A DNA stretch of 64,000 nt from Romanomermis culicivorax (Eukaryota > Nematoda > Enoplea > Mermithida > Mermithidae): NCBI GenBank assembly GCA_963922205.1, contig CAWUHX010000538.1:1-64000 (forward strand), given 5' to 3'. The notes under the pieces are model-generated. The model was not told where the DNA came from and did no database searches. It saw only the letters and a list, made by a program, of their open reading frames with translations. The number at the start of each line of letters is the position of its first letter. Position 1 is the stretch's first letter. A program made the position numbers and the translations under genes. Positions 13,285-64,000 of the stretch are shown here, piece after piece.

Positions 13285-13343
13285 TGTAACGACCAGTTTT
13301 GAGAAGCACTTTACTTTATCCTGAAGGGATGGTTGAAACGGCA
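13285..13343 (-). repeat. TE1 3' LTR remnant
   Basis: The last 59 bp of the LTR, matching 17204-17262. It joins the env reading frame without pol in between and supplies the last few env codons before the stop at 13316. Confidence 0.65.
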
Positions 13344-13807
13344 AGGACGTATTTCTGCTGCATTTGTGCCTCACGATGATTAGCTAATTCTAAGAGAGCA
13401 TGGCCGAATGATGGGGGAATGGTCTCATGTAAATGTCTGTTGTGTGATGGTATTTCGTATGCATGTTCATTTGTGGCATGATGCTTTGGAGAAGGGAAAT
13501 ATTTTCGAAGAATGAGAAAAGAATAAAAGACGCCTGCAATAACTATGGTAATAAGGGCTAGATTGATAATGATTTGCAGAGGTCCTCTGAGTAAATTTTT
13601 TAATCCGTCTGTGAGACTTTGGGTAGTACGGGTTATTACATGTTCTATGCCTTGACCGGCGCCAGAGAGGGTATTTCCAATTGCTTGGCCGCTGCCTGAG
13701 ATCATATTGTAAACTGTATCTGAATTAAGAGACATTTGGGCGGTGTAATTGATGAGTTTTTTAACAATGTTTTCGAGTGTATGAGTTTTGTAAATGTATT
13801 GTTTCAA
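13316..13807 (-). pseudogene. TE1 envelope C-terminus with transmembrane anchor
   Basis: The -1 frame continuation of the preceding ORF (4-bp overlap at a T5 homopolymer). It holds the membrane-proximal region (small Gly/Ser-rich helices, SGSGQAIGNTLSGAGQGIEH) and a transmembrane segment (IIINLALITIVIAGVFYSFL), matching TE3 around its residues 620-690. The last codons (from about 13343) are LTR sequence, the product of the pol deletion. The frame change is either a one-base indel or a former programmed slip; the T-run fits both. Confidence 0.65.
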
Positions 13808-16404
13808 AAAGAGTAAGTTTGTCGAGATTGTTGTGAGTTGGTCATGAAAAATTGCGGGTGTGTTAAAATGGAAAAAGAGAAATTTTGGCTCCAGACGATT
13901 TCTAAAGGTAAATTTGTGACAAGCGGCGATCCTGTTTCACTGACCCATGTATTATTCTGTCTGTAAAGGGCTACATGCATATGATGGCAGTCAACAGTTT
14001 GTGAAAAAGGGGTCAAATCGTTGCCTCCAGGGTTCGAAAACATGAGTTCAGCTCCTACGAGGATGGGCAAAAGTTTGTAGCATGTTCGGTTGATTTTGTG
14101 GTTGTAAAAGATTTTAGATGCATTTACCTGCTTGCAGGGCCAGACTGTGAGGGCTTCTCCTGTGAATTCTTCTATGATGTCGGTTCGTTGTAGGAATGCG
14201 CGCGCCCCAAGGGTTGCATCAAGGCGTAAAATTTGCCATACGAGATCAAGGTGATGCTGTGCCTGTCTGCATAATTCATTCCATATGTTTTTGAAATTTT
14301 GAATTTCGAATTCCTGGATTTTGTCTGCTAGATAATTTAGTTTCGCATTAATGGGTTCAAAATCATCAAAATCGTATAGTGTAGTATGAGTTTTGTTGGT
14401 TTTTGGGGTTAAAAATGCGTTATGATGTGGGGTGCTTTTGTCTAATTGTACAATAATGCCTTGTTCGGTTAGAATGCTGTCTTGGATTTCTGGGCAATTG
14501 GGGTTCGAAGAGAGTGTGTTTTTAACCGAGAATGCACCTTGTAGCTCTTCTATTATCATGTGGGTTTGCGTGAGTTTGATGGGATGTGTATTTTTGTATT
14601 CGAAGGGGCATAAGTTTTCAAATGCTGTTTCATTCCAGATAATGGATCCATCAGTTGTTACACAATGACCTGATGTCGGTTTGCATGACCCCAGGTCACC
14701 TAATGTACCTGTCATAGATTTTCCATTCCAAGATGCTATTTGTCCGATTTCTATGATGACGTTAGTGACCGAGGTACAGTGGTCTGTACAACACCATGTG
14801 TATTCTACGCTTAGGGAGTTATTTGTTGACCAAAATCCTGGTTGGGTTTCGTATAATTTTTGACCGTTGTGTTCTTTGTCTATAACAATTGCCTTACAAA
14901 CATGCGGGGTTAGATTTTGCATTTCGGTTTGGTCGAAGACAATACCTTTTGAGCCAAAAAATCCTGTATTAGTACAAATTTTCTGTTTGCGAACACTGCA
15001 TTTGTATGCATCTGTAATGAGGGGCTTAGTGGAGGGGATATAGATTTTTCCGAATGTCTGTACGGGTTTGTCTACTGTGGAAGGGGGCATGCATGATACA
15101 AGTTTTGGTATGCTGACTGAGTGACCGCTCAATGAAGTTCCACACATCTGAAATTGGGCACCACACGATGTGGGGATTATTATGCATAAAAATATACAAT
15201 ACAACGGCCAATATAGTGTTTTAGTGGAGGCGGCGGGGTACTGTATATTTTCGTTCTGGCCGGTTTGGTGTGGCGGCTTTTGGTGTTGTTCGGTTTTGGG
15301 CTGAGGGGGTGGCCGGTTTGCAATCTGAACAGTCTGTAAAATTTTAGAAGTTGAGTCATGGGATGGGGTTTGGACTCTCGTACTTGCAGGGGTCGGTAGG
15401 AGTGTTTGGCCGGGGTGGAATTGGTAGGGTTCGGGGGTCAGGCCATGGAGAAGGGATAACAAGTTGCGGCCTGCTTTCGACGAGGTTTCGGGGGCCGTGG
15501 GTGGCGTGGTGTCTTGCTTTCGGGAGATCTTGTAGCATACAGGGATGGTGGGTGGCGATTTTTCGATTTTTGCAGCTTCAGGGGTGGTGGGTGGTGACAT
15601 GGCGCACCAGTCGGGTACGTCCAGGTCGAGGACGTATTGGTCACTACAGCAGTGGGTAGTGGGCATAATGGTTCCTAAAGTAGTCTGAGGGCCGTTAGTT
15701 ATGGCGGATAATTTTGAGTAAAATGCGGGGTCATCAATGTCCATTAGGGGTTGGGGTTGCATGTACTCAATGCAATTTTGAATATTAGGACTCTGTTGGT
15801 TTGGGCAATACCTACTTGTATGACCTCTCTGCTTGCATAGAAAACTTTGAAAATTTGAGTAGGGTTTTGAAAAGCAGTTATCAGATCTATGCCCTGTTTG
15901 GGGGCAGTGGATGCATCGGCTTTTACAATCATGCGTACTGTGATTATTACGAAAACAAATTTCACATGGTTTTTGGGTGCCTACTGATTTACAATTGCGA
16001 GCTACGTGTCCAAGTTGTCCACACTGAAAGAATGTGGTTTGCCTAAGAGTAGTATTGTTCCTGTAAGCATTATTCCTGCTGAAAGTGTTGTTACTGAAAC
16101 CGTTGTAGTTACTCTGTTGTGGGGGTTGAGATTTTTGTTTGATCTGCAACTGTAAATCTTTTACTTGTTGTTTCAATTGATGCAGAAGATCCTGTTGGTC
16201 TGTATTTTTGGTTAGGGAAAAGATGGGTTCGGGTTTTGGGGGTATAAATGGAAGGGTGTTGGACTTTAGCTCATTTCTAAGAATTTGCTGTTCAATGTAA
16301 GCTGCTTCATCTGACATTTCTTTTAGGGTCCCGAACTGTCTATACTTAATTGCTTCCCTGATTTCGTTTTGCATGCCTTCTACAAAAAGGGGTTTTATGA
16401 TCAT
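13804..16404 (-). pseudogene. TE1 gag C-terminus (zinc knuckles) fused to envelope-like glycoprotein
   Basis: 866 codons in one frame. It continues gag (VEGMQNEIREAIKYR), then four CCHC-type knuckles around residues 125-205: CEICFRNNHSTHDC and CIHCPQTGHRSDNC are complete, while CGQLGHVARNC and CKQRGHTSRYC lack their first Cys. A Pro-rich linker follows. Then come a hydrophobic signal-like segment (about residues 398-417) and a Cys-rich ectodomain with ICTNTGFFGSKGIV, YTWCCTDHC, a GHCVTTDGSIIWN block and LDATLGARAFL, each with a counterpart in TE3. Several N-x-S/T sites are present. The ORF stops at 13804 in a T5 run; the rest of env is in the -1 frame. Envelope class is not certain; a mononegavirus/chuvirus-type glycoprotein is one possibility. 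No pol follows. Confidence 0.7.
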
Positions 16405-17088
16405 TTCTCATGCGTCTGTGTTAAAGTTAGGGTAGGCGAGGGTTGCGAGGTGTTCTAAATCAAACAAGAATTCAGTTACTGTTTCTGATCATTTTTGTTT
16501 TCTCTCGCATAAAAATTGTTGATGTAGCTCATTATCTCGATTGTTCGGGAAAAAGGCCTATAATGCGATTTTATACTGCACGTATGTGTGTAGAGGGTTT
16601 TTGGAATTGGCTAAACTTTTGAATTTTGCTAACGTGGCTCCTCGTAAATGAATCTCTAAACATGCTAACTTTAACTGTACGTCTGTGTCTTTCATGCCTT
16701 GGAGTGCCATGAATTGTTCTAATCGTTTATTCCATTCACCAAAATGTTGGGTCACGCCGCCCGTGAATACTGTAGGTTTTGTGTAAAAATTATTTGCCAT
16801 GTTATTACGAATGTTTGCTGTTCTTAGATTGTCAATTAGGGTAGGGTTTACTGTATTCTGATTCAATTGTGTGGGTAGAGTACGAAAATGTTCTGAAAAT
16901 AAATCGTTTATCTGTTTTCTAATGATTTCTCCTAAATGATCTTGTGTTTGGTGGGTCATTCTTGGTTTACGCTGTGATTTCTGCTTAAATGCTTCAATTT
17001 TTGCTTCACGCTGTATTCGTACAAATGTATCGCTTAATGTTTTGTTGGAGGGGATTTCCAGTTTGCTTTCTACGAATATTTGTCTTAC
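16405..17088 (-). pseudogene. TE1 gag, N-terminal half with three in-frame stops
   Basis: The frame is open from an acceptor-like CTACAG ending at 17089; the first Met is at 16959. It has retrotransposon-gag composition: an FGEWNKRLEQFMAL segment, then ETVTEFLFDLEHLA, then VEGMQNEIREAIKYR in the continuation. The same frame continues into the gag-env ORF and is interrupted by TAG at 16560-16558, TGA at 16491-16489 and TGA at 16410-16408. Each is one C-to-T change from CAG or CGA. There is no frameshift across this stretch, so these are point nonsense mutations in an old copy. Confidence 0.7.
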
Positions 17089-17184
17089 TGTAGGAAATAA
17101 TTACTACTGTATTATCTACTGCTTTGGGATGCCAGGGATAAGAATACACCTAATTGGGGCAGGGAGTTCCAGTGGTTAATGGTA

Positions 17185-17198
17185 CGGTACAGTCACCA
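17185..17198 (-). promoter_or_regulatory. TE1 candidate primer-binding site
   Basis: TGGTGACTGTACCG on the minus strand, five bases after the LTR end, begins with the TGG expected to pair with a tRNA CCA tail. TE2 carries the same GGTGACT heptamer just after its 5' LTR. The tRNA was not identified. Confidence 0.4.
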
Positions 17199-17203
17199 AA
17201 ATA

Positions 17204-18091
17204 AGTAACGACCAGTTTTGAGAAGCAGTTTACTCTATCCTGAAAGGACGGTCGAAACAGCATACAAGGGAAGGGGGGAACGGGTAATACAAGGGGGATA
17301 CGGATAATAATCGACAGCTGCTTTGAGATGTCGACAACAACAAATGGGAACAACGCAGTCTCAGCTTGCAAATAATTAACGGCCTCGGTTTAACTGCTTT
17401 CGTAAAAATGGCACTTGCAAATAAGACGAAAGATCGCGGAAAAACGAGAATTGGGAATCATGAATAATCACAAAATCACGCTTTGCTTCTCTTTAAATAC
17501 GACGTTTTTGGGCACTCCCTGGGCGTCGCGGGAGGTCTTGCTTCTGTCCATCTTCTTCGGCCAATCGCCGCTTCCTGCTTTACTATTCTCGCTAATTTAG
17601 TCACGCCCTTTAATGCTTTTCTGGTACTGCATGCTTTCCGTGCCTTGCTTGCTTCCTACAGTGGGCTTAGCCACACCTCTGTGCTTCTGTGTATGCTTCC
17701 TGTATCTGTTTCTCTGTATACACATGTTTTGTGGGACTGTCGCTACCATTGCACTTGAGACTACTGTCTGGCCGGGCTTTTACTTTTTACTGTGTGCAGG
17801 TGTTGTTTACGATTTTTACGGGGGATTACGGTGGCCGTGGAATGTGTGGTTTAGTGTAGGTTCTATGGGACCAGCTGCTGTTTGTGCAAATTAATTGGGG
17901 CATCTTAATTGGGCTACGGGGGTGTGAAGGGATCAAAATAAAGTACTTCACATAATTTTACAGGAATGTTTGGGTGGGAATCCCAGACACCCTTGAGACG
18001 ATAAATTATGGAAATGAATTAATATTTAATAAATGACGATCACATACAGTATGCTATAAATTTACAGTACTGCATTAGCAGGTACATTACA
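17204..18091 (-). repeat. TE1 5' LTR
   Basis: An 888-bp LTR on the minus strand. Its start (TGTAATGTACC at 18091) is set by the terminal inverted repeat and target duplication. Its end (about 17204) is set by a 59-bp match, with 7 mismatches by eye, to the 3' terminus at 13285-13343. The open frames on the plus strand across it (17415-17894) are not genes. Confidence 0.65.
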
Positions 18092-19312: not shown

Positions 19313-19316
19313 ATCA

Positions 19317-19938: not shown

Positions 19939-20034
19939 AGAGGTGACTTTTAACTCCTCACCACGGAACTTTGTAGTCAGACTAAGAGAAAAGAATATCC
20001 TCCAGGTTTCTACAGAAAGTTAGCAGGATTTAAA

Positions 20035-21000: not shown

Positions 21001-21015
21001 GATCCAAATTGAGTT

Positions 21016-23874: not shown

Positions 23875-23880
23875 CCAGTA

Positions 23881-31130: not shown

Positions 31131-32607
31131 AGAATATTCGACTACTCGAAGTCAAACGAGGATGGAGACCACCAAAAGTCAAACGCAAACGGAGACCTCC
31201 AAGGGCCAGACGAAATCGGATAGGACAACAGCGTCCACTGCATCGTACACTCAGACACGAACGGTATCGAAAACCGGCGGAGAGGTTAGTACGGCATCTG
31301 GTAAATCCAAGTCCGTTCCCACCAGCTATACCGCAAAAAGTAGTAAACCTGCGGGAAGCGTAGTGGTAAAGCCCGATCTTGAATCGGAGGAAAAGTTGAT
31401 CAAGAAGGTCAAACTGAATGTGGTGGTTAAAAAACCCGAAAGGGAGCCACAGCAGTTTGTCACTCCTGGTCAATTGGCTGAAACTCTGATTGATTATTGG
31501 GAGTGGCAGAGAGAACAAAGGTGCCTAATTGGGCCGATCTCATTCGAAAATCCAGAGGTCGCCAATTATTTCGCCTTTGACCGCCAAGAAGGGCCTATTA
31601 TTTATAGGATGGTCAATGATGCCATGGCCGAGATTCATGATAATTATACCCAACAATTGGAAATGCAGGGCGGATTCATGTTTAATGGAGAACGCGTCCC
31701 CGAGGAAATTTGGGAATGGATTATTTTAATTCTTATTCCCAGATGGCTTCAGGACTATGACGCTTCAGACGTCTTTACGGTCATTAGGTATGTGACCCTA
31801 ATGATATTTTTACAGTTGGATTTCGCGCCGATCACGCCGACGTCAATTGGTAGGTGGTATGCCCAGGCGTGTTTGTTTGCGAACAGACAACTAGTCGTTG
31901 AGGCCCAGGGAAACTGCGTAGAGGAGGTCTACATTGCAACCTTTAACCAGTACATCTTTATGGGCTCCCAAAGGTTAAACCAGATGGGTGTTAAGAAAAA
32001 GGCACCAGGTGATGACAGATCGCAAGCTGATATATATCAGCGAATGGCTGCCAATAGCCCAAGTAAGTTTAAGGTGCCTAGACTCCCTCCAGCTAAGAAA
32101 CAGCCGCCGACGACACAACATTTGTCTACTGCGACCAGCCAGAGGTCGTATAGTGAGGCTGCTAGCACTTCTTATAAAATTCCGCTTTCTCGATCAAAAT
32201 CAACATCATCAAAATCTCTTAATTCAACTTTCCGGACTCAAAAACCACAGCGCAGCAGCTCCACTAGCAGTGGTCCAGCACAAAGGCAGCAGGGGAGAGA
32301 CGATATGTTCTCAAACCCGGCCCCATACAGGGGTAGACCGGGGTATGACTGAGGTCAAGCTAGAAGAGGCTTCAGAGGGCGCCCTCAGCGACCCTACAGA
32401 GGCCGACGAACCTGGCAACACCAAGGTCAAGACCCGGATGCTCAGTTCTACAATCCGAACTTTCAGCTGCTTGGTAGACGCGGCCGAAGCCAGCAAGGCC
32501 AAAATCAAGGCCAGGATGGAGGTCAGACCCGAGGCCAACCTGGCCAGAGGGGATACTATCGAGGAAGACCTCGAGGACGTTACCGAGGCGGCGGGCAGCA
32601 GCAGTAA
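31131..32607 (+). pseudogene. TE2 ORF3 part 5: helical domain and Arg/Gly-rich tail
   Basis: Ser/Thr-rich linker, then about 180 residues of helical, Trp/Tyr-rich sequence ([17 protein letters not shown] through [18 protein letters not shown]). A low-complexity Ser/Pro region follows, and finally an Arg/Gly-rich tail (RGFRGRPQRPYRGR, RGYYRGRPRGRYRGGG) ending at TAA 32605-32607. A TGA at 32350-32352 interrupts the start of the tail at a position where Arg (CGA) would fit. A helical domain plus RG-rich nucleic-acid-binding tail is the layout of a Gag-like or RNA-chaperone protein, but the helical part is not recognised. A related tail lies at 52050-52513. Confidence 0.55.
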
Positions 32608-33358
32608 TTAGCCGCACAAATTTTGGCCCAAAAATCATCTTTTCGCAAATATATTTTTATTAATTTTATAAAATACAAAATCCAAAAACACTAATAAAAT
32701 CACAAAAATCCAAAAAAATCAAAAAATTATAAAATCCAAAAATATTATTTAAATTTCGGTGCTGCTGGCCAACTAAAATTTTCTTTTCGACAAAACCGGT
32801 GCAAAACGCAACCGTAAAAACATTTTCAAATTTTTGGCCACAATTTTATGCTCAATTTTTAGTGCATTTTTATTTTGTGATATCCGTACATTCCCGCGTC
32901 GTCTTTGTTGTATCGTACAATATAATCTCGTATTTTGATTTTAATTTAGAAAAAATAGAGATGTGGGAAAACGATTTGCATGCGGTTAGACCCACGGCCA
33001 ACGAATTGCCACAGCATGCAGACCGAGCAGCCGAACCTGAAATCGACCAAATTCGGCGCCGACGTCAACATCATACTCCTTAGGACGGGAGGTTATTCCA
33101 TCAAGGCTGAGGTCAAAATGGGTGTCACTTGCCAGCCATTGCGGCGAAGTCCATGGTATTCATTGTGTCCAACGACCAGCACAGGAGTCCAATTAGGACA
33201 GACTGTGAGATGGGAGTCAGAGTGAGACAAACTGTAATAACAGGAGTCAGCTGGAGTAGTAGATTTTTCCTTTTGATTAATTCTTTTTTAATGCCGGGGT
33301 AACCTGGCCGAAAGTTTTTTTTTCTACCTCCAGTAGGTCAGTTTCGACGTGCGAGGGA
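32608..33358 (+). other. TE2 3' untranslated region
   Basis: AT-rich (repeated AAAATCCAAAAA-type strings at 32665-32750), then an unassigned stretch and the purine-rich GCGAGGGA just before the LTR. The short open frames here (for example 32799-33083) are not supported. Confidence 0.6.
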
Positions 33359-33980
33359 TGTTGGGCACCCTGTTGATGGCAATTCACGTGGGGAAATCGC
33401 CATGCAAATCGAAGAAATGGACGACCAGCGGCCCAGACATTTGCATAGAAGTGGAGCACCAAAGAAAGACCAAAAAGATATGGTGAAATTCATTGTTCAC
33501 TATTATCGTTAATTTTATAATATTCTTGATATTATTTTGCTGGCGTCTATTAAAAACTTCCCAGCACTTTCGTCTTCTTTTGTATATTTTCGACTGTGGT
33601 CAGGCCACATTCTTTTTGATATTGCGTCGGAATTATTGTTTAATATATTCGTCTTTTATTTAGATTATTCCGATCATCGAAGGCGGAGGGCCCATGGCCC
33701 AGGCGCCGGCTTGCACCCGGCAAGCTTTGGGAAACCCTTTAAGGGTTATACTCAAGTAAGTTTATCCCTGAGGGGATTTCTTGTCTCAGCTAGGAGACTG
33801 CGGAGCTCTTTGGTGAGGCCCCGCATTTAGAGTAAAGTTTATCTTTGTTGTTGTAGGTCGGGGATAATCGGACTGTTGCACTATCACCGAGGCTTAGCCA
33901 AGGGAGTAGTTCTGACAGGTCAGATCAGACCCGAAGCCTCCATCTTTTCTTACGCCTCTTAAGAAAAGACCTGCACAACA
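33359..33980 (+). repeat. TE2 3' LTR
   Basis: 622 bp, same length as the 5' LTR, with about 26 mismatches. It is preceded by the purine-rich GCGAGGGA (candidate polypurine tract) and followed by the ATCA target duplication at 33981-33984. Confidence 0.95.
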
Positions 33981-33984
33981 ATCA

Positions 33985-43801: not shown

Positions 43802-45695
43802 CCTAAAACAGTGTTTCCTAAAACAGCGTTTCCTTAAAGAGCGTTTCCTAAAACAGCGTTTCCTAAAACAGCGGATTCCTAAAACTTGAATGTTATTGTT
43901 TTCTCATTTTGCGCCGAATTGTTGTAGTACAAAATTGAATGTTATCGTTATGTGCTCTCATTTTGCGCCGAAAACCATGCACATAGCTTTTTTGGTGTTT
44001 ATTTTAAACGTTTAAGCATCTACAAACGTTTGCATTTGAAAAAACAGTTTTCTTTCAAAAGTGTACAAAAATCTGCATTTTTTGCCCAAAAAAATAAAAA
44101 GCTACTAAAATTTTGCTTCGCATCAATTGACACTTTTTCCATTTTGAATGAAAAATAGCGAATACCGCAATGATTAAACCCCCATGCATTTGCATACGGA
44201 TTAGACACGTCGTTGGAGAACAATTGCAAAGATAGTGGATATACGCCAATGACTACATATTTACGGGCCCGTCCCAACACCGCCACCATCCCAACTCCGC
44301 CACCGTCCCAGCTCCGCCACTATCGTGTCCCAACACCGCCACCGTCCCAACTCTGCCACCGTCCCAACTCCGCCACTGTCCCAACTCCGCCCCTTTCTTG
44401 TCATAACTTTCGCAATCTTTCAAAAAGTTTATTTTTTGTAACGCGTTAAACTTAACCCTTAATTGCATGCGGTCGCGACCGAGGCAGTGAATTCTGAATA
44501 TATTTACTCACAAGCAAGTGGCTAAATGCTATTGTGACCCGATAATTTGATAAAATACTCCACAGTCATATTTTTCACAGAAATATTTAGAAGTCCTCCA
44601 TTTTTCTTATATTATTAAATATACGATACGATTCATCAAAATTCGTATCTCACCGTAATGGGGCTACCCCTTCACTTGAACATCTTTGTTTAGCCTCTCG
44701 TGTTAGTTTTAAGCCCTCGATTGCACTTTTCGATTTCGGAACACAAACTGGCAAATGTCCAATAAAAGGATCGGATATGAATCTTCCATTTCGAACAGTA
44801 GTTCTCGCCGATACAGCATTTCCATCTTCAGAGCAGAACATGCACACATAATAATGCGATGTTTCATTGTTTGACAAACGTTTAGAACTTTTCTTCCGGA
44901 ACAGAAAATACAAATCTGGATCATTACGCGCCGCAATTATCACTAAATTACTCTTTAATTCCTGATTCATAAAATTTTCAATAGGACCAAAGTCACCCAT
45001 GATTTGATTACACAAATTCGAATCAATTGACAACAAGAAATGAAAACAGACACATATATTTGTATTTTAATGTGCAAAGCACACAGTTATTTTGGTAATA
45101 TGCTAATGAAGTAAATTCCAGTCTCACGCTCGTTGTTCTATTTTTGATTATTTCGGCAAAATCGTTTGTATAGTTAAGTACGACTATACAAACGAAGATT
45201 GTATAGATATACCATGTATTTATTGTTTTAATGATAATATCAGTTTTTGCCATCCTATGAATTAGCAATGTCATGTTGTTAAGTAAAAAAAAAACTTTGT
45301 TACAAGAAACAAACTTTTTGAAAGATTGCGAAAGTTAGGACAAGAAAGTGGCGGAGTTGGGACAGTGGCGGAGTTGGGACGGTGGCGAAGTTGGGATGGT
45401 GGCGGTGTTGGGACACGATAGTGGCGGAGTTGGGACGGTGGCGAAGATGGGACGGTGGCAGTGTTGGGACGGTGGCGGAGTTGGGGCACGATCATATTTA
45501 CTAAGTTAATGGTTAGTCAATGTTCGTTTATTATGTAACAAAAACAGGCACTCTTCATTTATAAAAGCACGATCTGAGCAAAATAAACTTTTTCAACAGC
45601 GATCTAGTGTAAAGAAACTGAATGACAAATTGTGCCCATATATCATATACTAGGAACCGCTGTTTTAGGAACCGCTGTTTTAGACCTAAACCAAG
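43802..45695. repeat. Nested inverted minisatellite structure, possible DNA transposon
   Basis: The outer repeats, CCTAAAACAGCGTTT (15-bp unit, about five copies, 43802-43885), reappear inverted at 45650-45690. The inner arms, a 17-bp minisatellite GTCCCAACTCCGCCACC (seven to eight units, about 44270-44395) followed by CTTTCGCAATCTTTCAAAAAG, reappear inverted at about 45310-45486. The 0.8-kb centre contains one minus-strand ORF (44650-45036). Long arms built of tandem repeats suggest a Mutator-like or fold-back transposon. No target duplication was identified. Confidence 0.65.
44650..45036 (-). CDS. Zinc-finger-like ORF inside the inverted-repeat element
   Basis: 128 codons with YYVCMFCSEDGN followed by GHLPVCVP, a possible C-x2-C...H-x3-C metal site, and many charged residues. 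The pattern recalls DNA-binding N-termini of Mutator-like transposases or FLYWCH-type fingers, but it does not match well enough to assign. Its position between inverted arms supports a transposon origin. Confidence 0.35.
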   Translation of the reverse strand: MLSIDSNLCNQIMGDFGPIENFMNQELKSNLVIIAARNDPDLYFLFRKKSSKRLSNNETSHYYVCMFCSEDGNAVSARTTVRNGRFISDPFIGHLPVCVPKSKSAIEGLKLTREAKQRCSSEGVAPLR

Positions 45696-52740: not shown

Positions 52741-54349
52741 AAAGTAGCAGTTGTCCACAAAGCAATTTTTCTCAATGTAGAAAGTATATTTCCTCAAGTT
52801 TTGGCATTTTTTGGTCGAAAAATGATCAAATTTAAAACATTTCAACGGATTTATTTTTTTTTTCAAGTAAAAATCAAAGAATTTCCTAATATTTTGGCAT
52901 TTTTATTTCGAAAATTCATCAAATACACAAAATTTCAACAAATTTTTAATAATTTCCCCACTAAAAATTATCAAAATTTGACAAAAAAGAAGGAAAAATA
53001 GAATTTTCATCAAAAAAGTGGAATTTTGACAAGCAAAATTTTTAAGTTTCACGAAAAAACTGAACTATGATTAGAAAAAATTGAATTATGTTTAAAAAAT
53101 TTGCATTTTGACGAAAAAACAAAATTTTGATGAAAAAACTGTATTTTCATGCAAAAAATTTTAACAAAAGCAAATTTTCATAAAAAAAAGTCGAATTCTA
53201 GCAGAACAATCCGAATTTTAATGAAAAAATTATAATTTTGATCAATGACTTCGAATTTAGATTTTTTAAAATTAGAATTCGGACAAAGAAATGAAATTTA
53301 GTTTTCAAAAATTAGAATTTTGATGGAAAAAAAACGGAATTTGGTTTTCAAAAATCGGAATTTCGACAGAAAAATTCGAATTTTATCAAAAAATTCGAGT
53401 TTTGATCAAAAAGTTTAGAATTTTGATCAAAAAAATTAGAATTTTGGTTTTTAGAAATCAGAAATTTGATGAAAAAATTGGAATTGGCTTTCAAAAATTA
53501 TCATTTTGACCAAGTAAATTCGAATTTCGATTTTTAAAAATTAGAATTCTAATTCGAGTTAAAATTTTGATATTTGAAAAATTAGAATTTTGATAAAAAA
53601 TTAGAATAATTTTGATGAAAAAATTAGAATTTTGATGAAAAAATAGAATTTTGACGAAAAAATTAGAATTTTGGTTGAAAAATTAGAATTTTGATTTTTT
53701 AAAAATTAGAATTTTGATTTTTGAAAAATTAGAATTTTGATGAAAAATTATAATTTTGAGGAAAAAATTGGAATTTGTTTTTCAAGAATTAGAAATTTGA
53801 TGAAAAAAATTTTTTTGATTTATTGATTTCCGAAAATGAGAATTTTGATTTTAAAAAATCAGGATTTTGACTCAAAAAATTTCAATTTTGGTTTTTACGG
53901 ATTTTAGTAGAAAAATTTGAAGTTGGATTTCAAAAATTAGAATGTTGATCAAATAAATTCGAATTGTCATTTTTAAAAATAGAAATTTTGATAGAGAAAA
54001 TCTTATTCTCAATTAAAATTCGAATTTTAATTGAGAATAAGTCAACTATGGACATTATATATGGCACAAAAAGTACCCCCAAATTTTTCACGTCAAATAC
54101 AAATACGATTTAAAAAAAAATCGCGACAAAGCAACAGATTTTCCATTTCTTTATTTTTTCGTTTACATTATTTCTTCTTTTTTAAAGCTACATCAGTAAA
54201 GTTGTCGCGTTATTGCTGACACCGAAATATGAAATGGCCGCCACACCCAAATTGTTCGATGGGACCCCGATGTCCCCAGGCATGTGACCCAATTTTGGAA
54301 ACTTTGACCTGGACCACCGTTGAACCACTGCTGTAAATTCTCAAAGATT
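52741..54349. repeat. AT-rich degenerate minisatellite
   Basis: From about 52990 to 54030 the sequence is a degenerate tandem array of AATTAGAATTTTGATGAAAA-type units (about 16-20 bp, several dozen imperfect copies). The flanks 52741-52990 and 54031-54349 are unassigned. Confidence 0.75.
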
Positions 54350-54359: not shown

Positions 54360-55054
54360 CGAAGTCTTAGAACAGATTCTCAAAATTGTGGGACCTCAGT
54401 GGCAAAAACTGAACTGGATGGGTAGGTACACACTTTAAAGTTACACTGGGTTACTGTAAATGCTAGGTTACACTACTTATTAACGTTTTGTGCTTCGTTC
54501 GTGTTTATGTTTCAGGTGTTGGCGGCAACAAACGACGGCAACGAAAACGGACGACGTCAGCAAGCGAGCGGCAAACAGAGAAGTCGGTAAGTTTCTCAGC
54601 TCAAAAGGTAAAGTCTCAGACTAATCTTAAGTCCTACGATGTGTCCAATGGGTGAGTTTCCTGTTTATTAGGGTGACTCTGGTAAACGCGGTAACCACTC
54701 AAAAATATATATAAATCGGCGGGTTTCTATTTACAGGTGACGAACACGAAAGCGAACAAGCGCGACGATCTGGATGACGAAAACGACGAAGATTATACAC
54801 ACCAAAGTAAGTTTTACATGTAGTATATATATAAAATGTATGACATAAAAAGTAGCGAAAAAACAAAAATGTTTCTAATTTATTTTCTTATTTTTTCGTC
54901 TTTTTCTTCATAGGATTCCATCGAATGACGCAAATCAGCGTTCGAGCTGACCTTTTGGTGAGTTACTATCTTAAATTTTATCTATTTTTATGTTTCTAAT
55001 CTTTTTTTATTCATTTAGGCGGCATTGCTTTTCAAGAAGCGAAGGCGGCGATGA
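54360..55054 (+). CDS. Small multi-exon gene, basic/acidic protein (unrecognised)
   Basis: Consecutive exons with good splice sites: about 54360-54421 (donor GTAGGT), 54516-54586 (TTTCAG / GTAAGTTT), 54737-54806 (TTTACAG / GTAAGTTT), 54914-54957 (TTCATAG / GTGAGT) and 55019-55054 (TTTAG, stop TGA 55052-55054). One frame stays open through all junctions with matching phases. It reads a Trp-containing start (IVGPQWQKLNWM), a basic block (KRRQRKRTTSASERQ), an acidic block (DDLDDENDEDY) and a basic end (LLFKKRRRR). The 5' end is not fixed; more exons may lie upstream. No known domain. It runs opposite to TE3 and may overlap its 3' LTR. Confidence 0.45.
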
Positions 55055-55139
55055 CGAATGCGAAGAAGAACGAAAGTCGGACGATGACGTCAAGGAAAAA
55101 CAGGTTGGTTACTGTAGCTTAGTTTCTATGTTTCTTACA
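54455..55139 (-). repeat. TE3 candidate 3' LTR (boundaries tentative)
   Basis: On the minus strand, a purine run AGGGGAGGAAAA (55151-55140) is followed at once by TGTAAGAAAC. A TTACA that could be the other tip lies at 54455-54459, giving a TGTAA...TTACA unit of 685 bp, the same tips as TE1. The matching 5' LTR lies beyond the window, so this rests on the polypurine tract and tips only, and it conflicts with the plus-strand exons in the same interval unless those are antisense to the LTR. Confidence 0.35.
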
Positions 55140-55576: not shown

Positions 55577-57508
55577 CTAATACGGGTGCTGGCGTCGACC
55601 TTGTCGTTCCAGTCTCTCACAGTTCCAGCGATTTGCGTAAAAGCGCAAATGTGCGTAGGCGTAATCGCGGAGTAGCGGTTGCACTTTGTCGTCCGGGAAT
55701 TGTCGGGCGATGTCGTACGATCGCGAAAAACAAAATAAGTCGTGGATCTTGCACCACGGGTTCACTTCGTTGGCGAACCGAATCTTGAAGGCGTTTAAAG
55801 CCTCGACGGTTTCTCGTTCGACGCGGGCCTCCATTTCTCGTCGTCGGTCTCCAGCGCGTGGCAACGGTTCACGCGGTGTCTCATTTTGTTGCAGCGACTG
55901 TTGTTGTTGTGGCTGCGGCTGGGGTTGCGGTTCCTCGGGGGCGCCTTGATAATTGCGCGGCGGTGGCGGAAACATCCTCCCAGCGGGCGTCGAAACGTCC
56001 TTCGGTTGCTGTGATAAGGCGTCAAAAATTCGATTATGCAAATGAGGGGAAATTGATGAACTTCTGTGACTAGGTGACTGTAGTTTCCAATCCTCATTCT
56101 CAGTTAAACTAAATGATTCTATCTCTGTTTCTTTTTCTTCCTCATTTTCATGCTTCCTGATCTTTCTCAAACGTTTTTCATTCAGAGGGTCACTGATCTC
56201 ATGACTGTTCTCAATTGAACTTTGCTCAAAGTGCCTCTTCCTTGATTCGGTTATTGATTCATCAATTTGAAAGCCTCCTTCTGCTCGAGTTTCAGGTGTC
56301 TTGTGTCTGAACTCACGGTTCCTTGCTGACTTCAATTCAGTATCTGTCTGATCTCTCAGTTTTCGATTAACTACAGGAATTCTGTAGGAATTCATGTCTG
56401 TGGTTTCAATAAGTTCTAGATCTGTTTCTTTATTGACATGCTTTCTTAAGTTGGTGACTGTATCACTAGTTTCTCTTCTAACAGAGGTTTCATAAATTCC
56501 GATTGGTTGGGGTAGCATTGGGATTGCTAATAATCGTTTCTGATCAGCTACTAGATGTTGCAAGTTAGAAAAAATTGGATAATAAGCATCTAATGCCAAA
56601 TAAAGATCTAAGGTGACTAGTGATTTTAATGCAGCATAATGAATATGTTTCTCAGTGGTTTCAACAGCTGGCCAATTTGGTTCTTCCTCAAAGGTTGGGC
56701 CGAAAATGTGTTGAACCATAGAGGGAAGGGTTGGTTTCACTGTTTCAGGTGAAAAGGGTAAACCTAAGAGCTTGCAAAGTGTGATGTCTTCTGGGGTGTC
56801 AAATTTAGCATATTTTTCGTGCAAAAATTGCTTAGTGTTACTGTGTCTCAGTGCAGTCCAAATTCTTTTTGAATCGGCTGATGTTTGATAGGTTACTATA
56901 TCTTCTGTAAATGTAGATATTGCACGGGCATCCTCTTGGGCGCCAAAGCCTACTGTCAACAGGGTATCTGATATCAAATGTGCAAGTGGAGTAGCTATGC
57001 AACGCATTTTGGTAATATCAAAAACAACTGTGGTTCCATCAAATCGGGTAACTTGAATTGTAGCTAGAATCGGATTCGTATGCTCAGTTCCTGCTTCTAT
57101 TTTGTACAAAGATTGAATGCCTTCTGGCCAATCCTCATAAGGTCTCTTGTCTCTTAAGCAGGTTGTGCTTATGGCGACCAAACCAGGTCGGTTAATGTCT
57201 CTTAGTAACATGTTACACAAAAGGTTACACTGATCTACTGTAGTACAGTGTGTGTATCTTCCTTTCAAAGGGGTACGACCAAGCTCAGTTGCAAAATAGT
57301 CTAACATGTTGCTCCTCATTTCTAATAAAGATAGGCCTACTTCGGGTAACACGGCGACGTTCAACTGTAAACCTTCGTCGTCGGACGAATGGTTGCTGTT
57401 GGCCTCGTCCGGGCTGCTGCTGCTGCTGCTACTGTGGGCGGCAGCAGTCGACGGTCCCGCTTTTTCCAATCGTCGTCGGCGGTTGCGTTGGCGACGTAAT
57501 CGATACAT
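55577..57508 (-). CDS. TE3 ORF3: degenerate DEDDy exonuclease-like protein
   Basis: The frame is open from 57571, but ATG 57508 is preferred: it opens a basic segment (MYRLRRQRNRRRR) and an acceptor-like TTTACAG lies upstream. About 643 codons. The exonuclease fold can be followed: Exo I position LVAISTTCLRD near 57180 (Ser and Thr where Asp and Glu are expected), strand ATIQVTRFDGTTVVFDITKM, Exo II LLTVGFGAQEDARAI near 56930 (Asp retained), Exo III LYLALDAYYPIF near 56590 (Y-x3-D retained). The C-terminal half is low-complexity (Arg/Glu/Gln/Pro) and ends in a Cys/Trp/Tyr-rich region. With Exo I lost it is probably not catalytic but may bind RNA or act as a decoy (inference). TE2 has the intact version. 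Confidence 0.65.
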   Translation of the reverse strand: MYRLRRQRNRRRRLEKAGPSTAAAHSSSSSSSPDEANSNHSSDDEGLQLNVAVLPEVGLSLLEMRSNMLDYFATELGRTPLKGRYTHCTTVDQCNLLCNMLLRDINRPGLVAISTTCLRDKRPYEDWPEGIQSLYKIEAGTEHTNPILATIQVTRFDGTTVVFDITKMRCIATPLAHLISDTLLTVGFGAQEDARAISTFTEDIVTYQTSADSKRIWTALRHSNTKQFLHEKYAKFDTPEDITLCKLLGLPFSPETVKPTLPSMVQHIFGPTFEEEPNWPAVETTEKHIHYAALKSLVTLDLYLALDAYYPIFSNLQHLVADQKRLLAIPMLPQPIGIYETSVRRETSDTVTNLRKHVNKETDLELIETTDMNSYRIPVVNRKLRDQTDTELKSARNREFRHKTPETRAEGGFQIDESITESRKRHFEQSSIENSHEISDPLNEKRLRKIRKHENEEEKETEIESFSLTENEDWKLQSPSHRSSSISPHLHNRIFDALSQQPKDVSTPAGRMFPPPPRNYQGAPEEPQPQPQPQQQQSLQQNETPREPLPRAGDRRREMEARVERETVEALNAFKIRFANEVNPWCKIHDLFCFSRSYDIARQFPDDKVQPLLRDYAYAHLRFYANRWNCERLERQGRRQHPY

Positions 57509-57571
57509 AATCCAAAAAATAATAAATTCGTCGAAATAGTAAACAATTTCTGTAAACAAAAATACAAACAA

Positions 57572-57908: not shown

Positions 57909-60900
57909 TCACAAAGAGCTGGTGCTCGTTCTGCTGCGGCAGAATGGCACCGGTGTATAAATCGAAAAGATGTGAGCCTCTTTTTGCATATTTTGTTTCA
58001 ATGTGGGGTCTGTTGCATTCCTTATGGGTTTTTCTGTTTCTGTTACTTTATTCGAATGTTTCTCAGCTAGGGCACTTTTTTTCTTAAGTAGATTCATATG
58101 TACCCACTCAGCTCGTGTTTCTCGTCCATTAGGTAGATTTATCTGCACTATCGGGGGTTTCACATCTAAAACTTTATAGGGGCCTTGCCACGGAAAGGTA
58201 AATTTTGGTGAGTGGCGTAGTTTCACCGTAGGATTATATTTGAAAACTTCATCTCCTTTCTGCACATGTAGTTCGTGTTGTTTCTTATCATACTGTAACT
58301 TTTGGGTTTCTTGAGCTTTCTCAATGTTTTTTCTTGCAGATTCCCACGCCTCGGCCAAAAATCGTTGGAATTGGTCGCCGTATTCGTCGAGATCAATACG
58401 ATAGCGGCTCGGTTGGAACGTCAATGCGGCGTCGATCGGCAAATTCGGATGGCGCCCAAATAAAAGAAAAAAAGGTGAGTATTTTGTTGATTTTTGTGGC
58501 GTACTATTGTATGCAAAACAGGCATACGGTAGGTATATATCCCAATCTGTATGCTTGTTATTGACATACATGGAAATCATGGTAGCTAGTGTCTTATTAA
58601 ATCTTTCTGTAAGGCCATCTGTCTGTGGGTGATAAGGGGTTGTGTTGACTTTTCGGGTGCCACATAATTCACAAATTTTGAGCACTAATGCTGACAAAAA
58701 ATTTGCTCCTTTGTCTGACAAAAGAACAAGGGGGGCACCAAAGCGCAAAACGATTTCTGTAACAAAGATTTTTGCTGTAGTTTCTGCTGTTCCATCTGGT
58801 ATGGCTACTGCGGTTGCATACTTAGTTAGATATTCTGTGAAAACAATGGCATATTTGTTTCCATTTTCTGTCATTGGTAAGGGTCCTAATATGTCAACAG
58901 CTATTCTATCAAAAGGTCCTGTTACGGGTATGGGTACCAAAGGTGCCTTTGTTCTCTTCCCTGTCGTTTTCTTCATTGTGCAACTGATACATTTTTCACA
59001 ATGTAACTGGGTTTCTTTATACATTCCTGGCCAAAAATAATGAGTTCTTATTCTGGCTAAGGTTCTAACAAATCCTAAGTGACCGGAAAAAACATCATCG
59101 TGACAAGCTTCTAAAATTTCTTCTACCATGCTTCTGGGTATGACTAACTTAGGTTCGGTTTCTGGTGCCTTAGGTATACGGTACAAAATATTTTCACTGA
59201 TCACGTAATCATCACTCGTGAGTTGCACATGTTGCATTTCTCTGAACTCAACTGGTAACTGATTAAATAGTATATACTCAAGGTACTTTCTACAAAATTC
59301 ATCTTTCTGTTGTGCTTCTCGAATCTTTGTTAGCATCTCTTGAGTCTCATTGGCACTGGTAACTGCAGCACAAATGGGGTTTCTTGAAAGGGCATCGGCA
59401 TTCTTATTCACTCGTCCAGGTCTATGCTTAATATTGAGTTCCTGAAATTCTTGAAGGGCTAATCCCCACCTTGCAATTCGTCCAGAGGGATTTGGTTTCG
59501 AAAAGACACTACTTAGGGCTGAGTGATCTGTGTAAACGGTAACTCTCTGTTGATAAAGATACTGTCGGAAATGTTTCACTGCCCAGACGACAGCTAAAGC
59601 TTCTTGTTCGGTAACTGAATAGTTTCTTTCTGCTTTGCTCAAACTTCGACTAGCAAAAGCGATAGGTTGCTCTCCATTTTTGGTCTGTTGTGAAAGCACT
59701 GCACCAATACCTTCTATAGATGCATCAGTGTATAGTATGAATGCATTGTGAAAGTCTGGGTGAATAAGTAAGGGTGATGTAACAAGGGCGTTCTTCAAGG
59801 TTTCAAAACTTTCGTGACATACTGATGTCCAGTCATATTTCTGATTAAGTTTCAAAAGTTGATGAAGAGGGTACGCTTTTCTGGCAAAGTTTCTGATAAA
59901 TCGGCGATAGTAGCTTGCTAAACCTAAAAAACTACGTAACTGGTCAACATTTTTTGGAGTCGGAAATTGTTTCACTGCTTTTATCTTTTCTTCATCCGGT
60001 CGAATTCCAGTTGCTGAGATTTGGTGACCAAGGTACGAAATTTCTGACTGCAAGAAGTGACATTTCTCGAGTCTAAGTTTCAATCCTGCATTTTGTAATC
60101 TTTGAAAAACTTCTTCCAATCGTTCAAGGTGTTCCTCAAAAGTTCTTCCAAAAATTAATACATCATCTAAGTAAACTAAACAGGTTGACCACTGTAATCC
60201 ACTCAAAACTAAATCCATAAGTCTCTGAAAAGTTGCGGGTGCATTACATAATCCAAATGGCACTACTGAAAATTCAAATAGTCCATTGTAAGTTATAAAT
60301 GCTGTCTTTTCTCTGTCTTTTCCAGCAACGGGTATCTGCCAGTATCCCCATGCTTGATCAAGTGTCGAGAATAGGGTGGCTCCATGTACAGCATCAAAAA
60401 TGTCATCTATCCTAGGTAACGGGTAACTGTCTTTCTTGGTGACACTGTTGAGTTTCCGGTAATCTACACAAAAGCGAAATCCTCCTGTCTTCTTGGGCAC
60501 CAGAACCACTGGGCTGGCCCACGGACTTTGTGAGGGTTTGATCACTCCTTTCTCAAGCATCTTATTGATTTCCTCATCAATGGCTTCTCGTTGCTTGTAG
60601 GGTACTCTATAGGGTATCTGCCTAATTGGTCGGTTGTCTCCAGTATCAATCGTATGTTCTGCTAAGTTAGTTTTTCCTAAATCTGTTTCATCTCTGGCAA
60701 AAAGTGAAGAGAATCGGGCGAGTAACTGTCGAAATTGATGACCTTGCTTAGGGCTAAGTTTCGCCTGTTTGATTTCCTCATTGATCACTTCTAAAACTTG
60801 TTCTGGTATCGTACTTTTGTTTCTTGTTTCACTCTCCTGACCTATAGTCGAAGCAATGACCTGACATTGGGGTGTTTCAAAGGTTTTGTTGCATGACCAT

Positions 60901-63900
60901 GGCTGTCTATATACTCGAACTTTCCCTACTTTAGTGTTTCTATACAGAATAATGGGTGTATTGGTGACATTCAGTACACTGACTGGTATGATTCCATCAT
61001 CTGGTCGCACTAAACATGAAGCGACTTGTAACTGAAATCGATTTAAAAATTGTGGGATTGGTTCAAAAATTAATGAGTCAAATTTGGCATATGGGGCTTC
61101 TAACCTAGCTGTAACAAAACTAATCGATCTGGGAGCCAAAGTTATGGTCTCATCTAGAACAGCGATTCCACGTGAGGTCTCTGGTAGATAGATCTTAGTG
61201 TTTTTCATGGGTACTGATATGTTTCCAAAATCAATCTGAGCTTTCTTCCACTGTAAATCAGTTTTAGCAAATCGACGTAAATAATCGGTTCCAAGCAACA
61301 AATCATATGTCGAATCTTTAACTACATGAACTCTTAAAAATTCTGCTGGGGCTACTACAGAATTTGCGATATTAAGTGACACTTTGATCCAACATGATGC
61401 TACAACCTCAGTAGTGACGTTATTAAACACTCTAAATCCTGGTATCACAGCGGGTAACAAATTGTATCCTCTCCGAGTAACTAAATCTAAACCTATCAGT
61501 GAAATATCTGATCCACTGTCAATAAGGGTTGTAACTGGGACTTCAAAGTCTTCATTAATCCAAACCTCGATAGTTGGGCATCGATCTTGACACAAACCGC
61601 TGTGGTTAGCGACAGTTGGTAAATTATTCCTCATCTTGGGTTTCTTTGGGGTGACTATCGGTTCAAGTGCCTGAACTATAACTTTTCCTAATGAATCAAG
61701 TTCAACGTCCTCATAATCTGTTCCTTTCGCCTGTGACACATTCTGAATCTCGGTTACATTATCATTCCTGTTGGTTTCTTTCACATGACTGATCTGATCG
61801 GTTGCTCCTTGGGTTTCTACACATTGTTTCAAGGTTGAGAACTTTACAATAGGTTGTTTCATTCGTTTTGGGAACCATTTTCTTTGGGTAAAATAACTCG
61901 GACATGCACAAGTCTTTTTCCGCAGGTATCTTTGTAAAATAAGCCAGGTTACTGTGGCAACACCAGCTAAGATCAAAAGAACTATCAACACGTTGAGTAT
62001 CAATTGTAGTGGTCCTGATACCAAGTAATTAGTGAAATTAATCAGATTATTGGTTCCAGTGGTGGCAATGTGTTCAAGTGAATTGGTTGCTCCTTCTGTG
62101 ACTTCTGCAATGGCCTTCCCAGTACCAGCCAAAGTTTGATAAACTACTGATGGATCAAGTGCTAAATTAGCTGTATACTTAACTAGTCTATCTAAAGTTC
62201 CTTCAAAAACGCTCAGTTTCGAAAAGTAACTCCTCATGAGTCCAAAAGTATGAAGAATTCCAGTCTGTTGATCATGGAAATATGATGGTGAATTAAACGT
62301 TTGTAACTTATAGCTTCCTGTCCATGAGATGTCGAATGGAACACTGGTTACATGTACCGGTCCTGAACTAGTTTTCCAACCTTCTTGAGGGTCATTATAC
62401 AATCCTATAGTATGGTGGTTGCAGTCTACAATGGGTGCTTGATCTAAAAGATCATGGGAGCCGGGTACAACAAAGTAGGTGAGGTTTCTCGCTAAAATTG
62501 GTAGATAAGCGTAGCATGTATCGTTGATTCGGTAATCCCAAAAAAATTGATCGGGTATGATTTTAACACATTCCCATATCATGAGAGCTTGACCAGCAAA
62601 AGTAGCAACTATGTCATTTCTCATGAGTAAAGCACGAGCACCTAGAGTTGGATCTAACTTGAGTAACTGCCAAATCATCTTTAGGTGTCTCTCTGCAGAA
62701 TGACAAAGTTCAAGCCATACTGTTCGAAATAGCTTTGATTCTTGTTCCATGATCTTATCATACAAATACTGTATCTTAGCATTTTGCGGGTCTCTATCAG
62801 TAGGTTCAGCTTCTCTCTCTGGGGTGACTATTGAAATAGAATCCTGAAGTTCACTAAGGTTTCTTGTAAACTGTAAAATCGGACCTTGTTCAGTTTCATA
62901 GGCAAAGGTCAAGTGGCATATATTTGTAGGTCTAAATAAAGTAAAAGCTCCTTGTATCGCCTCAATAATTATATGGTTTCTGATTAGGTGACCAATATAT
63001 TCTCCAATCTTCTCAATCGAACACTGTTCCACTAAAATAGTTGAGTTCCAAATTATAGTTCCTCCTGAATTCACGCATTGTCCAGCATTTGGCGGACATC
63101 CTCCTGTATCTCCTAGGTCGCTGATAGTGGTTTTCTTATCTACTGTTGCAATGGTGCCTACCTCAATCAAAAAATTAACTATCGATTGACAAAAATCTTG
63201 GCAACACCATCTGTATCTCAAGTTGAGGGTGTTATTGGTGACCCAAACTCCATGCTGAAGTTCTCTCAATGGTTGACCTCTATACTCTTTATCATCCCAT
63301 GCCTGTCGACAGGTTCCAGGTGTTACTGTTTCTTGTTCTGTGGAATCGAGAACAATTCCTCGTGATCCAAAAAATCCGGTGTTCGTACAAATGGTTCTGT
63401 TTCTCAACAAACATCGTACTGCTTGAATTCTGCTCATATGGCCATTAGCTGACCAGACGCTCAATTCGAGTTCCTTCTTTTCTGTGCCGAACAAAGGCGG
63501 AGGGCGACAAGGTACATGTTTCGGTATAGCAATTGCTCGGCCTCCTCGTGACATTCCACACTGATAGTAAGGCTCAGAAGTAGCTCTACCAATCAAAAAT
63601 GAAAGAAAAATCAAAATGACTAAAATAAAGAAATTACTAGCTGTAGGTAGTCTGAAATTGGTTAAAAATGGTTTCATAAATCTTATAAAAGATCTCCAGT
63701 TAACTGATCTTCTAGGTCTGGAAATTCTTCCATTCCTCCATCTATGTCTGTTTCTGTTTCTCCTGCTCCTTCTAATTTGCATAACGGGACTAAATGTATT
63801 GAGTGGCGCTCTATAAGATCCAAACTGATCATCATTAGTTTCATTCTCAGATTCCGAGTTATGATCAAAATTATAGTTTCCTTCTCTGTATGGTAACATA

Positions 63901-63998
63901 GGTGGAACATGAGCTAATAAGCGTCCAAAATTGTCCCGGGTGTCTCGTCTTTCGCTGTGACCTTCAGTATCATGTAACACATTCGATTGCCTGCCCAT
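57909..63998 (-). CDS. TE3 envelope-protease-RT-RNase H-integrase polyprotein
   Basis: One uninterrupted ORF; the first ATG is two bases from the window edge, so the real start may lie further out. Residues 1-115: Arg-rich. About 120-137: signal/anchor (FFILVILIFLSFLIG). About 142-650: Cys-rich ectodomain (CGMSRGGRAIAIPKHVPC, CTNTGFFGSRGIV, YRWCCQDFC, DPTLGARALL) with several N-glycosylation sites. About 661-686: transmembrane (LNVLIVLLILAGVATVTWLI). Then a linker, protease LIDSGSDISLIG (about 824), RT with FRFCVDYRKLN (1179), LFSTLDQAWGYWQ and catalytic YLDD (1275), RNase H YTDASIEGIGAV (1424), integrase HHCC (..CEKCISC.., 1669), D1701, D1760, E1797 and a GPY end (PWQGPYKVL). Pol belongs to Ty3/gypsy. 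Envelope placed before pol and in frame with it is highly unusual; normally env is a separate gene after pol. Confidence 0.92.
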   Translation of the reverse strand: MGRQSNVLHDTEGHSERRDTRDNFGRLLAHVPPMLPYREGNYNFDHNSESENETNDDQFGSYRAPLNTFSPVMQIRRSRRNRNRHRWRNGRISRPRRSVNWRSFIRFMKPFLTNFRLPTASNFFILVILIFLSFLIGRATSEPYYQCGMSRGGRAIAIPKHVPCRPPPLFGTEKKELELSVWSANGHMSRIQAVRCLLRNRTICTNTGFFGSRGIVLDSTEQETVTPGTCRQAWDDKEYRGQPLRELQHGVWVTNNTLNLRYRWCCQDFCQSIVNFLIEVGTIATVDKKTTISDLGDTGGCPPNAGQCVNSGGTIIWNSTILVEQCSIEKIGEYIGHLIRNHIIIEAIQGAFTLFRPTNICHLTFAYETEQGPILQFTRNLSELQDSISIVTPEREAEPTDRDPQNAKIQYLYDKIMEQESKLFRTVWLELCHSAERHLKMIWQLLKLDPTLGARALLMRNDIVATFAGQALMIWECVKIIPDQFFWDYRINDTCYAYLPILARNLTYFVVPGSHDLLDQAPIVDCNHHTIGLYNDPQEGWKTSSGPVHVTSVPFDISWTGSYKLQTFNSPSYFHDQQTGILHTFGLMRSYFSKLSVFEGTLDRLVKYTANLALDPSVVYQTLAGTGKAIAEVTEGATNSLEHIATTGTNNLINFTNYLVSGPLQLILNVLIVLLILAGVATVTWLILQRYLRKKTCACPSYFTQRKWFPKRMKQPIVKFSTLKQCVETQGATDQISHVKETNRNDNVTEIQNVSQAKGTDYEDVELDSLGKVIVQALEPIVTPKKPKMRNNLPTVANHSGLCQDRCPTIEVWINEDFEVPVTTLIDSGSDISLIGLDLVTRRGYNLLPAVIPGFRVFNNVTTEVVASCWIKVSLNIANSVVAPAEFLRVHVVKDSTYDLLLGTDYLRRFAKTDLQWKKAQIDFGNISVPMKNTKIYLPETSRGIAVLDETITLAPRSISFVTARLEAPYAKFDSLIFEPIPQFLNRFQLQVASCLVRPDDGIIPVSVLNVTNTPIILYRNTKVGKVRVYRQPWSCNKTFETPQCQVIASTIGQESETRNKSTIPEQVLEVINEEIKQAKLSPKQGHQFRQLLARFSSLFARDETDLGKTNLAEHTIDTGDNRPIRQIPYRVPYKQREAIDEEINKMLEKGVIKPSQSPWASPVVLVPKKTGGFRFCVDYRKLNSVTKKDSYPLPRIDDIFDAVHGATLFSTLDQAWGYWQIPVAGKDREKTAFITYNGLFEFSVVPFGLCNAPATFQRLMDLVLSGLQWSTCLVYLDDVLIFGRTFEEHLERLEEVFQRLQNAGLKLRLEKCHFLQSEISYLGHQISATGIRPDEEKIKAVKQFPTPKNVDQLRSFLGLASYYRRFIRNFARKAYPLHQLLKLNQKYDWTSVCHESFETLKNALVTSPLLIHPDFHNAFILYTDASIEGIGAVLSQQTKNGEQPIAFASRSLSKAERNYSVTEQEALAVVWAVKHFRQYLYQQRVTVYTDHSALSSVFSKPNPSGRIARWGLALQEFQELNIKHRPGRVNKNADALSRNPICAAVTSANETQEMLTKIREAQQKDEFCRKYLEYILFNQLPVEFREMQHVQLTSDDYVISENILYRIPKAPETEPKLVIPRSMVEEILEACHDDVFSGHLGFVRTLARIRTHYFWPGMYKETQLHCEKCISCTMKKTTGKRTKAPLVPIPVTGPFDRIAVDILGPLPMTENGNKYAIVFTEYLTKYATAVAIPDGTAETTAKIFVTEIVLRFGAPLVLLSDKGANFLSALVLKICELCGTRKVNTTPYHPQTDGLTERFNKTLATMISMYVNNKHTDWDIYLPYACFAYNSTPQKSTKYSPFFLLFGRHPNLPIDAALTFQPSRYRIDLDEYGDQFQRFLAEAWESARKNIEKAQETQKLQYDKKQHELHVQKGDEVFKYNPTVKLRHSPKFTFPWQGPYKVLDVKPPIVQINLPNGRETRAEWVHMNLLKKKSALAEKHSNKVTETEKPIRNATDPTLKQNMQKEAHIFSIYTPVPFCRSRTSTSSL

Positions 63999-64000
63999 TC

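Follow-up and report, generated by a model that had tools for sequence, protein, structure and literature searches.

Retroviruses carry gag, pol and env in this order and produce Env from a spliced mRNA, as outlined in PMC10309623. Insect errantiviruses such as gypsy and ZAM are likewise built of long terminal repeats (LTRs), gag, a protease-reverse transcriptase (RT)-RNase H-integrase block and an envelope gene, the latter being, in the account of PMC12992720, a spliced open reading frame (ORF) of the F type located after pol. Class III envelopes are reported by PMC13172572 to occur in some gypsy and BEL elements. Here we describe TE3, an LTR element of the nematode Romanomermis culicivorax which has the same components as the errantiviruses, but in which env lies between gag and pol, in frame with both, and is predicted to encode a class III protein. 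TE3 was identified at the end of a 64,000-nucleotide stretch (the window; C538:1-64000) of an assembly of 359 Mb in 595 contigs. A preliminary description of the window had viewed it as an Env-Pol unit, in which a single intact frame encodes a signal, a Cys-rich ectodomain, a transmembrane anchor, protease, RT, RNase H and integrase.

Results

Hydropathy, Pfam and motif searches recovered all of these parts in the order described (Table 1). The absence of stops held for the 2029 codons in the window and extended to 2703 codons on the full contig, where the frame opens at C538 position 66020, because it continues upstream through Gag. The ATG at 63998 is merely the final codon of the window, within the longer Gag-Env-Pol frame, and chance falls far short of explaining so long a stretch without stops. 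TE3 env is therefore in frame with its neighbours on both sides, Gag upstream and Pol downstream: the fusion of env to pol stood, the unit itself was refined to Gag-Env-Pol, and a second family of this kind, TE1, was already present inside the window. The Gag upstream of TE3 env carries the zinc knuckle CYRCGRSGHYIANC; as had been anticipated, gag and 5' LTR were both found beyond position 64000. The two TE3 LTRs (756 bp, ends TGTAAG...CCCACA) are 99.3% identical over 756 columns and are flanked by an inexact target duplication. A subset of the catalytic motifs, said to be all intact, was checked, and the protease DSG and the RT YLDD are present. The query pieces used as 'env' and 'pol' were divided at 61499/61500, that is, within the protease domain and just past the DSG motif.

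The order gag, env, protease, RT was found in 28/28 genomic loci selected for holding env (L001-L008, of which L001 is the window copy, with 1.5 kb flanks, and L010-L029 with about 2.6 kb). Since this order recurs in every locus, an assembly error joining two elements, the caveat raised in the preliminary description, is excluded, and full-length relatives of the kind it called for do exist. Chance nesting of two elements was also ruled out by the common order, frame and LTRs. One open frame spanned gag, env, protease and RT (at least 150, 500, 250 and 150 amino acids, respectively, the third value referring to the protease region) in 11 of the 28 loci, and these 11 come from at least three subfamilies by env distances. 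Ten more loci were chosen by hand among at least 147 RT matches, mostly ones absent from the env lists, and the 1.6 kb at the expected env position was examined. In nine of them env was present at the predicted site upstream of the protease, with RTs 58-83% identical to that of TE3. The preliminary description had also reckoned with copies in which env follows pol or is missing. No copy of the first type was seen, the region downstream of pol not having been scanned in every copy, whereas two of the second type were found (see below). Among proteins in public data, P0001 (2293 amino acids) and P0002 (2294 amino acids) are single chains in which a gag bearing a zinc knuckle is followed by env, protease, RT, RNase H and integrase, their RTs being 58% identical to that of TE3, and P0003 and P0004 contain env, protease and then the start of RT. 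Scans of IMG/VR viral contigs confirmed no relatives. The in-frame placement of env ahead of pol is intact and common to several families.

TE1 is an internally deleted copy that keeps its 5' LTR, gag, env and the last part of the 3' LTR but no pol; the end of its env, with the anchor, is in a different frame (13319-13936). It is 92% identical to a family member across 3373 columns, and the TE1 and TE3 env sequences share 37.5% identity. At least 91 genome matches to this family were scored (92-95% identical to TE1 env), of which 55 lie in open frames of 2400 amino acids or more and 28 have frames of exactly 2484 or 2486 amino acids; this represents a recent burst of copies. In eight TE1-family loci, including TE1, gag preceded env in all eight and protease followed env in seven, with one open frame over the 4.4 kb examined in five. 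A copy on contig C370 consists of an LTR, a single 2486-codon frame and an LTR; the LTRs (901 bp) show two differences, and CATC flanks the copy on both sides. These LTRs leave no space for a further gene, so that the 2486-codon frame is all this copy has.

The TE3 Env matches Pfam PF24664 (Monjiviricetes fusion glycoprotein) at 59.5-60.7 bits, against a cut-off of 27, and the TE1 Env does so at 64.6 bits. The fold match of the ectodomain is to herpesvirus gB, which has the class III fold. By Pfam and fold match, TE3 Env is thus classed as a class III viral fusion glycoprotein, with a predicted fusion activity, and no Pfam match to an F-type (baculovirus F-like) envelope was obtained in the TE3 frame. 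The TE3 ectodomain contains 16 Cys and seven N-glycosylation sequons, and no R-X-[KR]-R site along its 529 residues. The count of 16 Cys was found in 14/16 sequences (L010 and P0005 were left out of the Cys, signal and methionine scoring). The 43 residues preceding the TE3 signal have a net charge of +16. When families were compared, a small residue preceded the conserved mature Env start, after the hydrophobic core, despite the differing sequence. Across three dS classes, dN/dS of env was 0.205 (60 pairs), 0.148 (32 pairs) and 0.096 (18 pairs), and the medians for gag were 0.551, 0.318 and 0.333, in pairs that have shared ancestry and include decayed copies. We conclude that env is under purifying selection, close to that on the protease.

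The two env-less relatives have RTs approximately 65-70% identical to that of TE3. In the tenth of the RT-chosen loci (L055, C239:226900-228500), gag instead of env lies upstream of the protease. The related locus L058 (C146:184000-188400) contains gag, a basic stretch, a hydrophobic segment, protease and RT, without an env match; the hydrophobic segment is in the same frame as gag, but past at least one stop. This segment is possibly a remnant of a signal or anchor, in which case env would have been lost with the frame kept. Env loss and prior absence are both compatible with the RT tree, which took in only the relatives and TE2 (a further LTR element of the window), has a weak base, long branches, no sure root and good support for 5 of 12 inner branches, and in which P0003 fills 39% of its columns.

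Downstream of pol, TE3 has an additional gene, ORF3, with at least 69 genome matches, many of them broken. It is common to several TE3-like subfamilies at 29-44% identity, but the C370 copy has no space for it. Acceptor-like sites were present upstream of ORF3 in 3/3 copies scored (six were fetched), which suggests that ORF3 may be made from a spliced mRNA. No relatives of ORF3 were found in the protein database or among solved structures, and a single-sequence structure model (pLDDT 35) was unusable. Assignment as a DEDDy exonuclease, based on an 'ALDAYY' motif in common with a TE2 ORF, was unsupported, as BLASTP found that short stretch alone (E 0.015) in one comparison and nothing in the other.

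Other features of the window include TE2 (19316-33981), an LTR element of 14.7 kb whose 624-bp LTRs are 95.8% identical; its gag and pol occupy 19954-26865, and additional ORFs take up roughly 5 kb (27233-33080). Two inverted-repeat pairs, at 8015-9656 (210 bp, 98%, 1.2 kb between) and 44269-45492 (174 bp, 93%, 0.9 kb between), are possible DNA transposons. An AT-rich diverged repeat array with a spacing of about 20 bp (52951-54041) adjoins the TE3 3' LTR. Elsewhere in the assembly, a cox1-like stretch (L046, C117:992573-993922) lies in a frame of 519 codons, gives a good reading with the invertebrate mitochondrial code (code 5) and is probably a nuclear copy. The SL1 22-mer was looked for and not found.

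Table 1. Coordinates of TE3 and TE1 features in the window.
Feature	Position	Strand	Remarks
TE1, copy with an internal deletion, second Gag-Env-Pol family	13286..18091	-	ACTG on both flanks
TE1 C-terminal gag with zinc knuckles, joined in frame to env	13319..16407	-	gag-env frame 13807-16407
TE3 3' LTR	54386..55139	-	pairs with 5' LTR at C538 66163-66918
ORF3 (664 amino acids)	55577..57571	-	after pol, before 3' LTR
Env-Pol part of the single Gag-Env-Pol frame	57909..63998	-	2029 codons, stop-free
Integrase, H2C2 zinc-binding and rve core	58626..59141	-	PF17921 E 1e-18, PF00665 E 3e-8
RNase H	59445..59756	-	PF17917 E 8e-40
Reverse transcriptase	60018..60500	-	PF00078 E 7e-36; YLDD at 60147-60173
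Aspartic protease DSG motif	61506..61526	-	~135 residues past Env anchor; conserved across families
Env transmembrane anchor	61935..61991	-	hydropathy; followed by basic tail, net +10 in 32 residues
Env ectodomain, predicted class III fusion glycoprotein	61992..63578	-	529 residues; Pfam and fold match
Internal signal peptide, hydrophobic core	63588..63644	-	hydropathy, 12-residue mean 3.52

Discussion

The interpretation that we favour, and regard as rather probable, is that TE3 is an LTR retroelement with Ty3/gypsy-type enzymes whose in-frame class III env, placed between gag and pol, is read together with them as one polyprotein through an internal signal. The entire frame would be translated as a single chain, beginning with the synthesis of Gag in the cytosol. 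The internal signal would then open the translocon, and signal peptidase would cleave before the mature Env start, so that Gag would be freed from Env. The anchor would halt transfer, and protease, RT and integrase would next emerge into the cytosol; there the element's own protease, lying shortly after the anchor, would free Pol from the Env tail. Because it would be synthesised attached to Env, Pol would be brought to the budding site. The initial ratio of Gag, Env and Pol would be 1:1:1, and surplus Gag would therefore have to arise by another step, such as Pol turnover, premature termination or splicing of a low-abundance mRNA for Gag.

By the positive-inside rule, basic flanks of membrane segments stay on the cytosolic side, and the basic stretches before the signal and after the anchor would accordingly leave Gag and Pol cytosolic and Env luminal. 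The preliminary description had pointed out that an anchored protein carrying pol on its cytosolic side poses a problem of topology. This concern is justified, and a single pass out and back through the membrane, leaving Gag and Pol in the cytosol, could meet it; we infer both this topology and the means by which the proteins become separate and reach their proportions. The structural polyproteins of flaviviruses and alphaviruses follow the same logic of an internal signal within one chain: capsid, internal signal and glycoprotein (then, in flaviviruses, the enzymes) are in one frame, and signal peptidase frees the capsid side. These are unrelated RNA viruses, and the likeness is one of layout and inferred working, not of descent.

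In favour of a polyprotein are the single 2703-codon frame between the LTRs, the order common to 28/28 loci and the 11 frames open over all four parts, the C370 copy with nothing but its frame, the small residue preceding mature Env, the basic flanks of the signal and anchor, the dN/dS of env and the lack of acceptor-like sites ahead of the signal; the env-less C146 locus, too, has a hydrophobic segment ahead of its protease that is in frame with gag. Several observations point the other way. Acceptor-like sites occur inside the signal-coding stretch (TE3 subfamily, L011, L014 and L019) and inside gag, donor-like sites (7/9) occur upstream of env in 3/4 TE1-family copies scored, and a Met lies 17 (TE3) or 9 (L011 and L014) residues before the signal core. 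The splice motifs were scored against a general consensus, which may not be that of the host.

The acceptor- and donor-like sites bear on the main alternative, possible but doubtful in our opinion, in which the gene order is real but Env and Pol come from separate mRNAs, either by splicing of the leader or the start of gag to env, or by in-frame removal of env to yield Gag-Pol; the open frame would then reflect env being both exon and intron. There are precedents for such splicing, since PMC12992720 describes insect errantivirus Env as the product of a spliced mRNA, with the donor within gag in one subclade, and the plant element BARE, which has one frame, makes a spliced Gag-only mRNA according to PMC3735527. 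However, in 11/11 copies scored no acceptor-like site was found before the signal (the interval 450-60 nt ahead of the first Cys of the ectodomain), splicing into the sites within the signal-coding stretch would cut the signal off, and the families have no common pair of sites around env. Moreover, splicing does not require an open frame over both joints, yet this frame is kept in families with saturated silent sites.

A second alternative is that Env has a start of its own, by internal initiation or reinitiation near the signal. This would yield Env-Pol, and Gag would end or be processed at another place. The upstream Met makes such a start possible in TE3, L011 and L014, and P0004 begins 8 residues before the core (its record begins at the signal, with no Gag shown). 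The nearest Met is 45-134 residues away in the remaining families scored, among them the young TE1 family, and we judge this explanation improbable. Finally, that Env is a relic or passenger, the order having arisen once by recombination and copies having spread without using Env, appears highly improbable: C239 and C146 indicate that the enzymes can spread without env, but the purifying selection on env, the constancy of its 16 ectodomain Cys (14/16 sequences) and the same order in families with RTs 54-60% identical to that of TE3 argue against it.

With respect to classification, the protease-RT-RNase H-integrase order with Ty3-like domains is that of Ty3/gypsy elements (Metaviridae), and a profile made with the protease-RT start of the relatives retrieved Ty3 Gag-Pol as first match among solved structures. 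The LTRs also agree with this group (TG...CA ends and a 4-6 bp duplication), the duplication being CATC in the C370 copy, ACTG in TE1 and inexact in TE3. Unlike in errantiviruses, env is not downstream of pol, and the envelope gives a PF24664 class III match instead of an F-type one. Belpaoviridae have a BEL/Pao-type pol and the order Gag-Pol-Env; the order of TE3 differs, and no BEL/Pao Pfam domain was among its matches. Nor does TE3 have the gag-pol-env order of Retroviridae.

Individual elements share some of these traits. Atlas virus, a hookworm belpaovirus, has a single Gag, Pol and Env polyprotein frame between LTRs and a captured virus-like fusogen, but its order is Gag-Pol-Env and its fusogen is phlebovirus-like and class II, as described in PMC9094657. 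Anakin from mosquitoes encodes a class III, chuvirus-like glycoprotein as TE3 is predicted to do, but it is a BEL/Pao element, and known BEL/Pao envelopes are placed downstream of the polyprotein by PMC7642597. Cer1 of C. elegans, a gypsy element, joins gag and pol in one frame and makes a further ORF by splicing, but in the description of PMC10309623 it has no Env between gag and pol. The bdelloid rotifer elements Juno, Vesta and TelKA resemble TE3 in having varied extra ORFs after pol; in the account of PMC5408684 it is among these that the TelKA envelope, which is paramyxovirus F-like, is found. No description of a gag-env-pol element was found in the literature searched, which was thin on subscription journals and bioRxiv and did not include the survey of Chary and Hayashi 2025.

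Gag-Env-Pol could represent a third genome plan, that of a lineage of animal retrovirus-like elements present in several families and probably in several host species. It would hold a captured class III fusogen of the negative-strand-virus type within the polyprotein, a single pass through the membrane of the endoplasmic reticulum, with signal peptidase cleavage, would replace the spliced env mRNA, in a flavivirus-like manner, and selection would have maintained the plan during one recent burst of copies or more; for this wider proposal we consider the case evenly balanced. As synthesis would leave the enzymes attached to the envelope anchor from the outset, the amounts of Env and Pol, the packaging of Pol and the gain or loss of infectivity become directly testable. 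Surveys that seek env solely after pol would miss elements of this type. Gag-pol-env with a separately made Env is regarded as the basic retroviral plan; a stable and repeatedly intact Gag-Env-Pol indicates that a polyprotein can incorporate Env.

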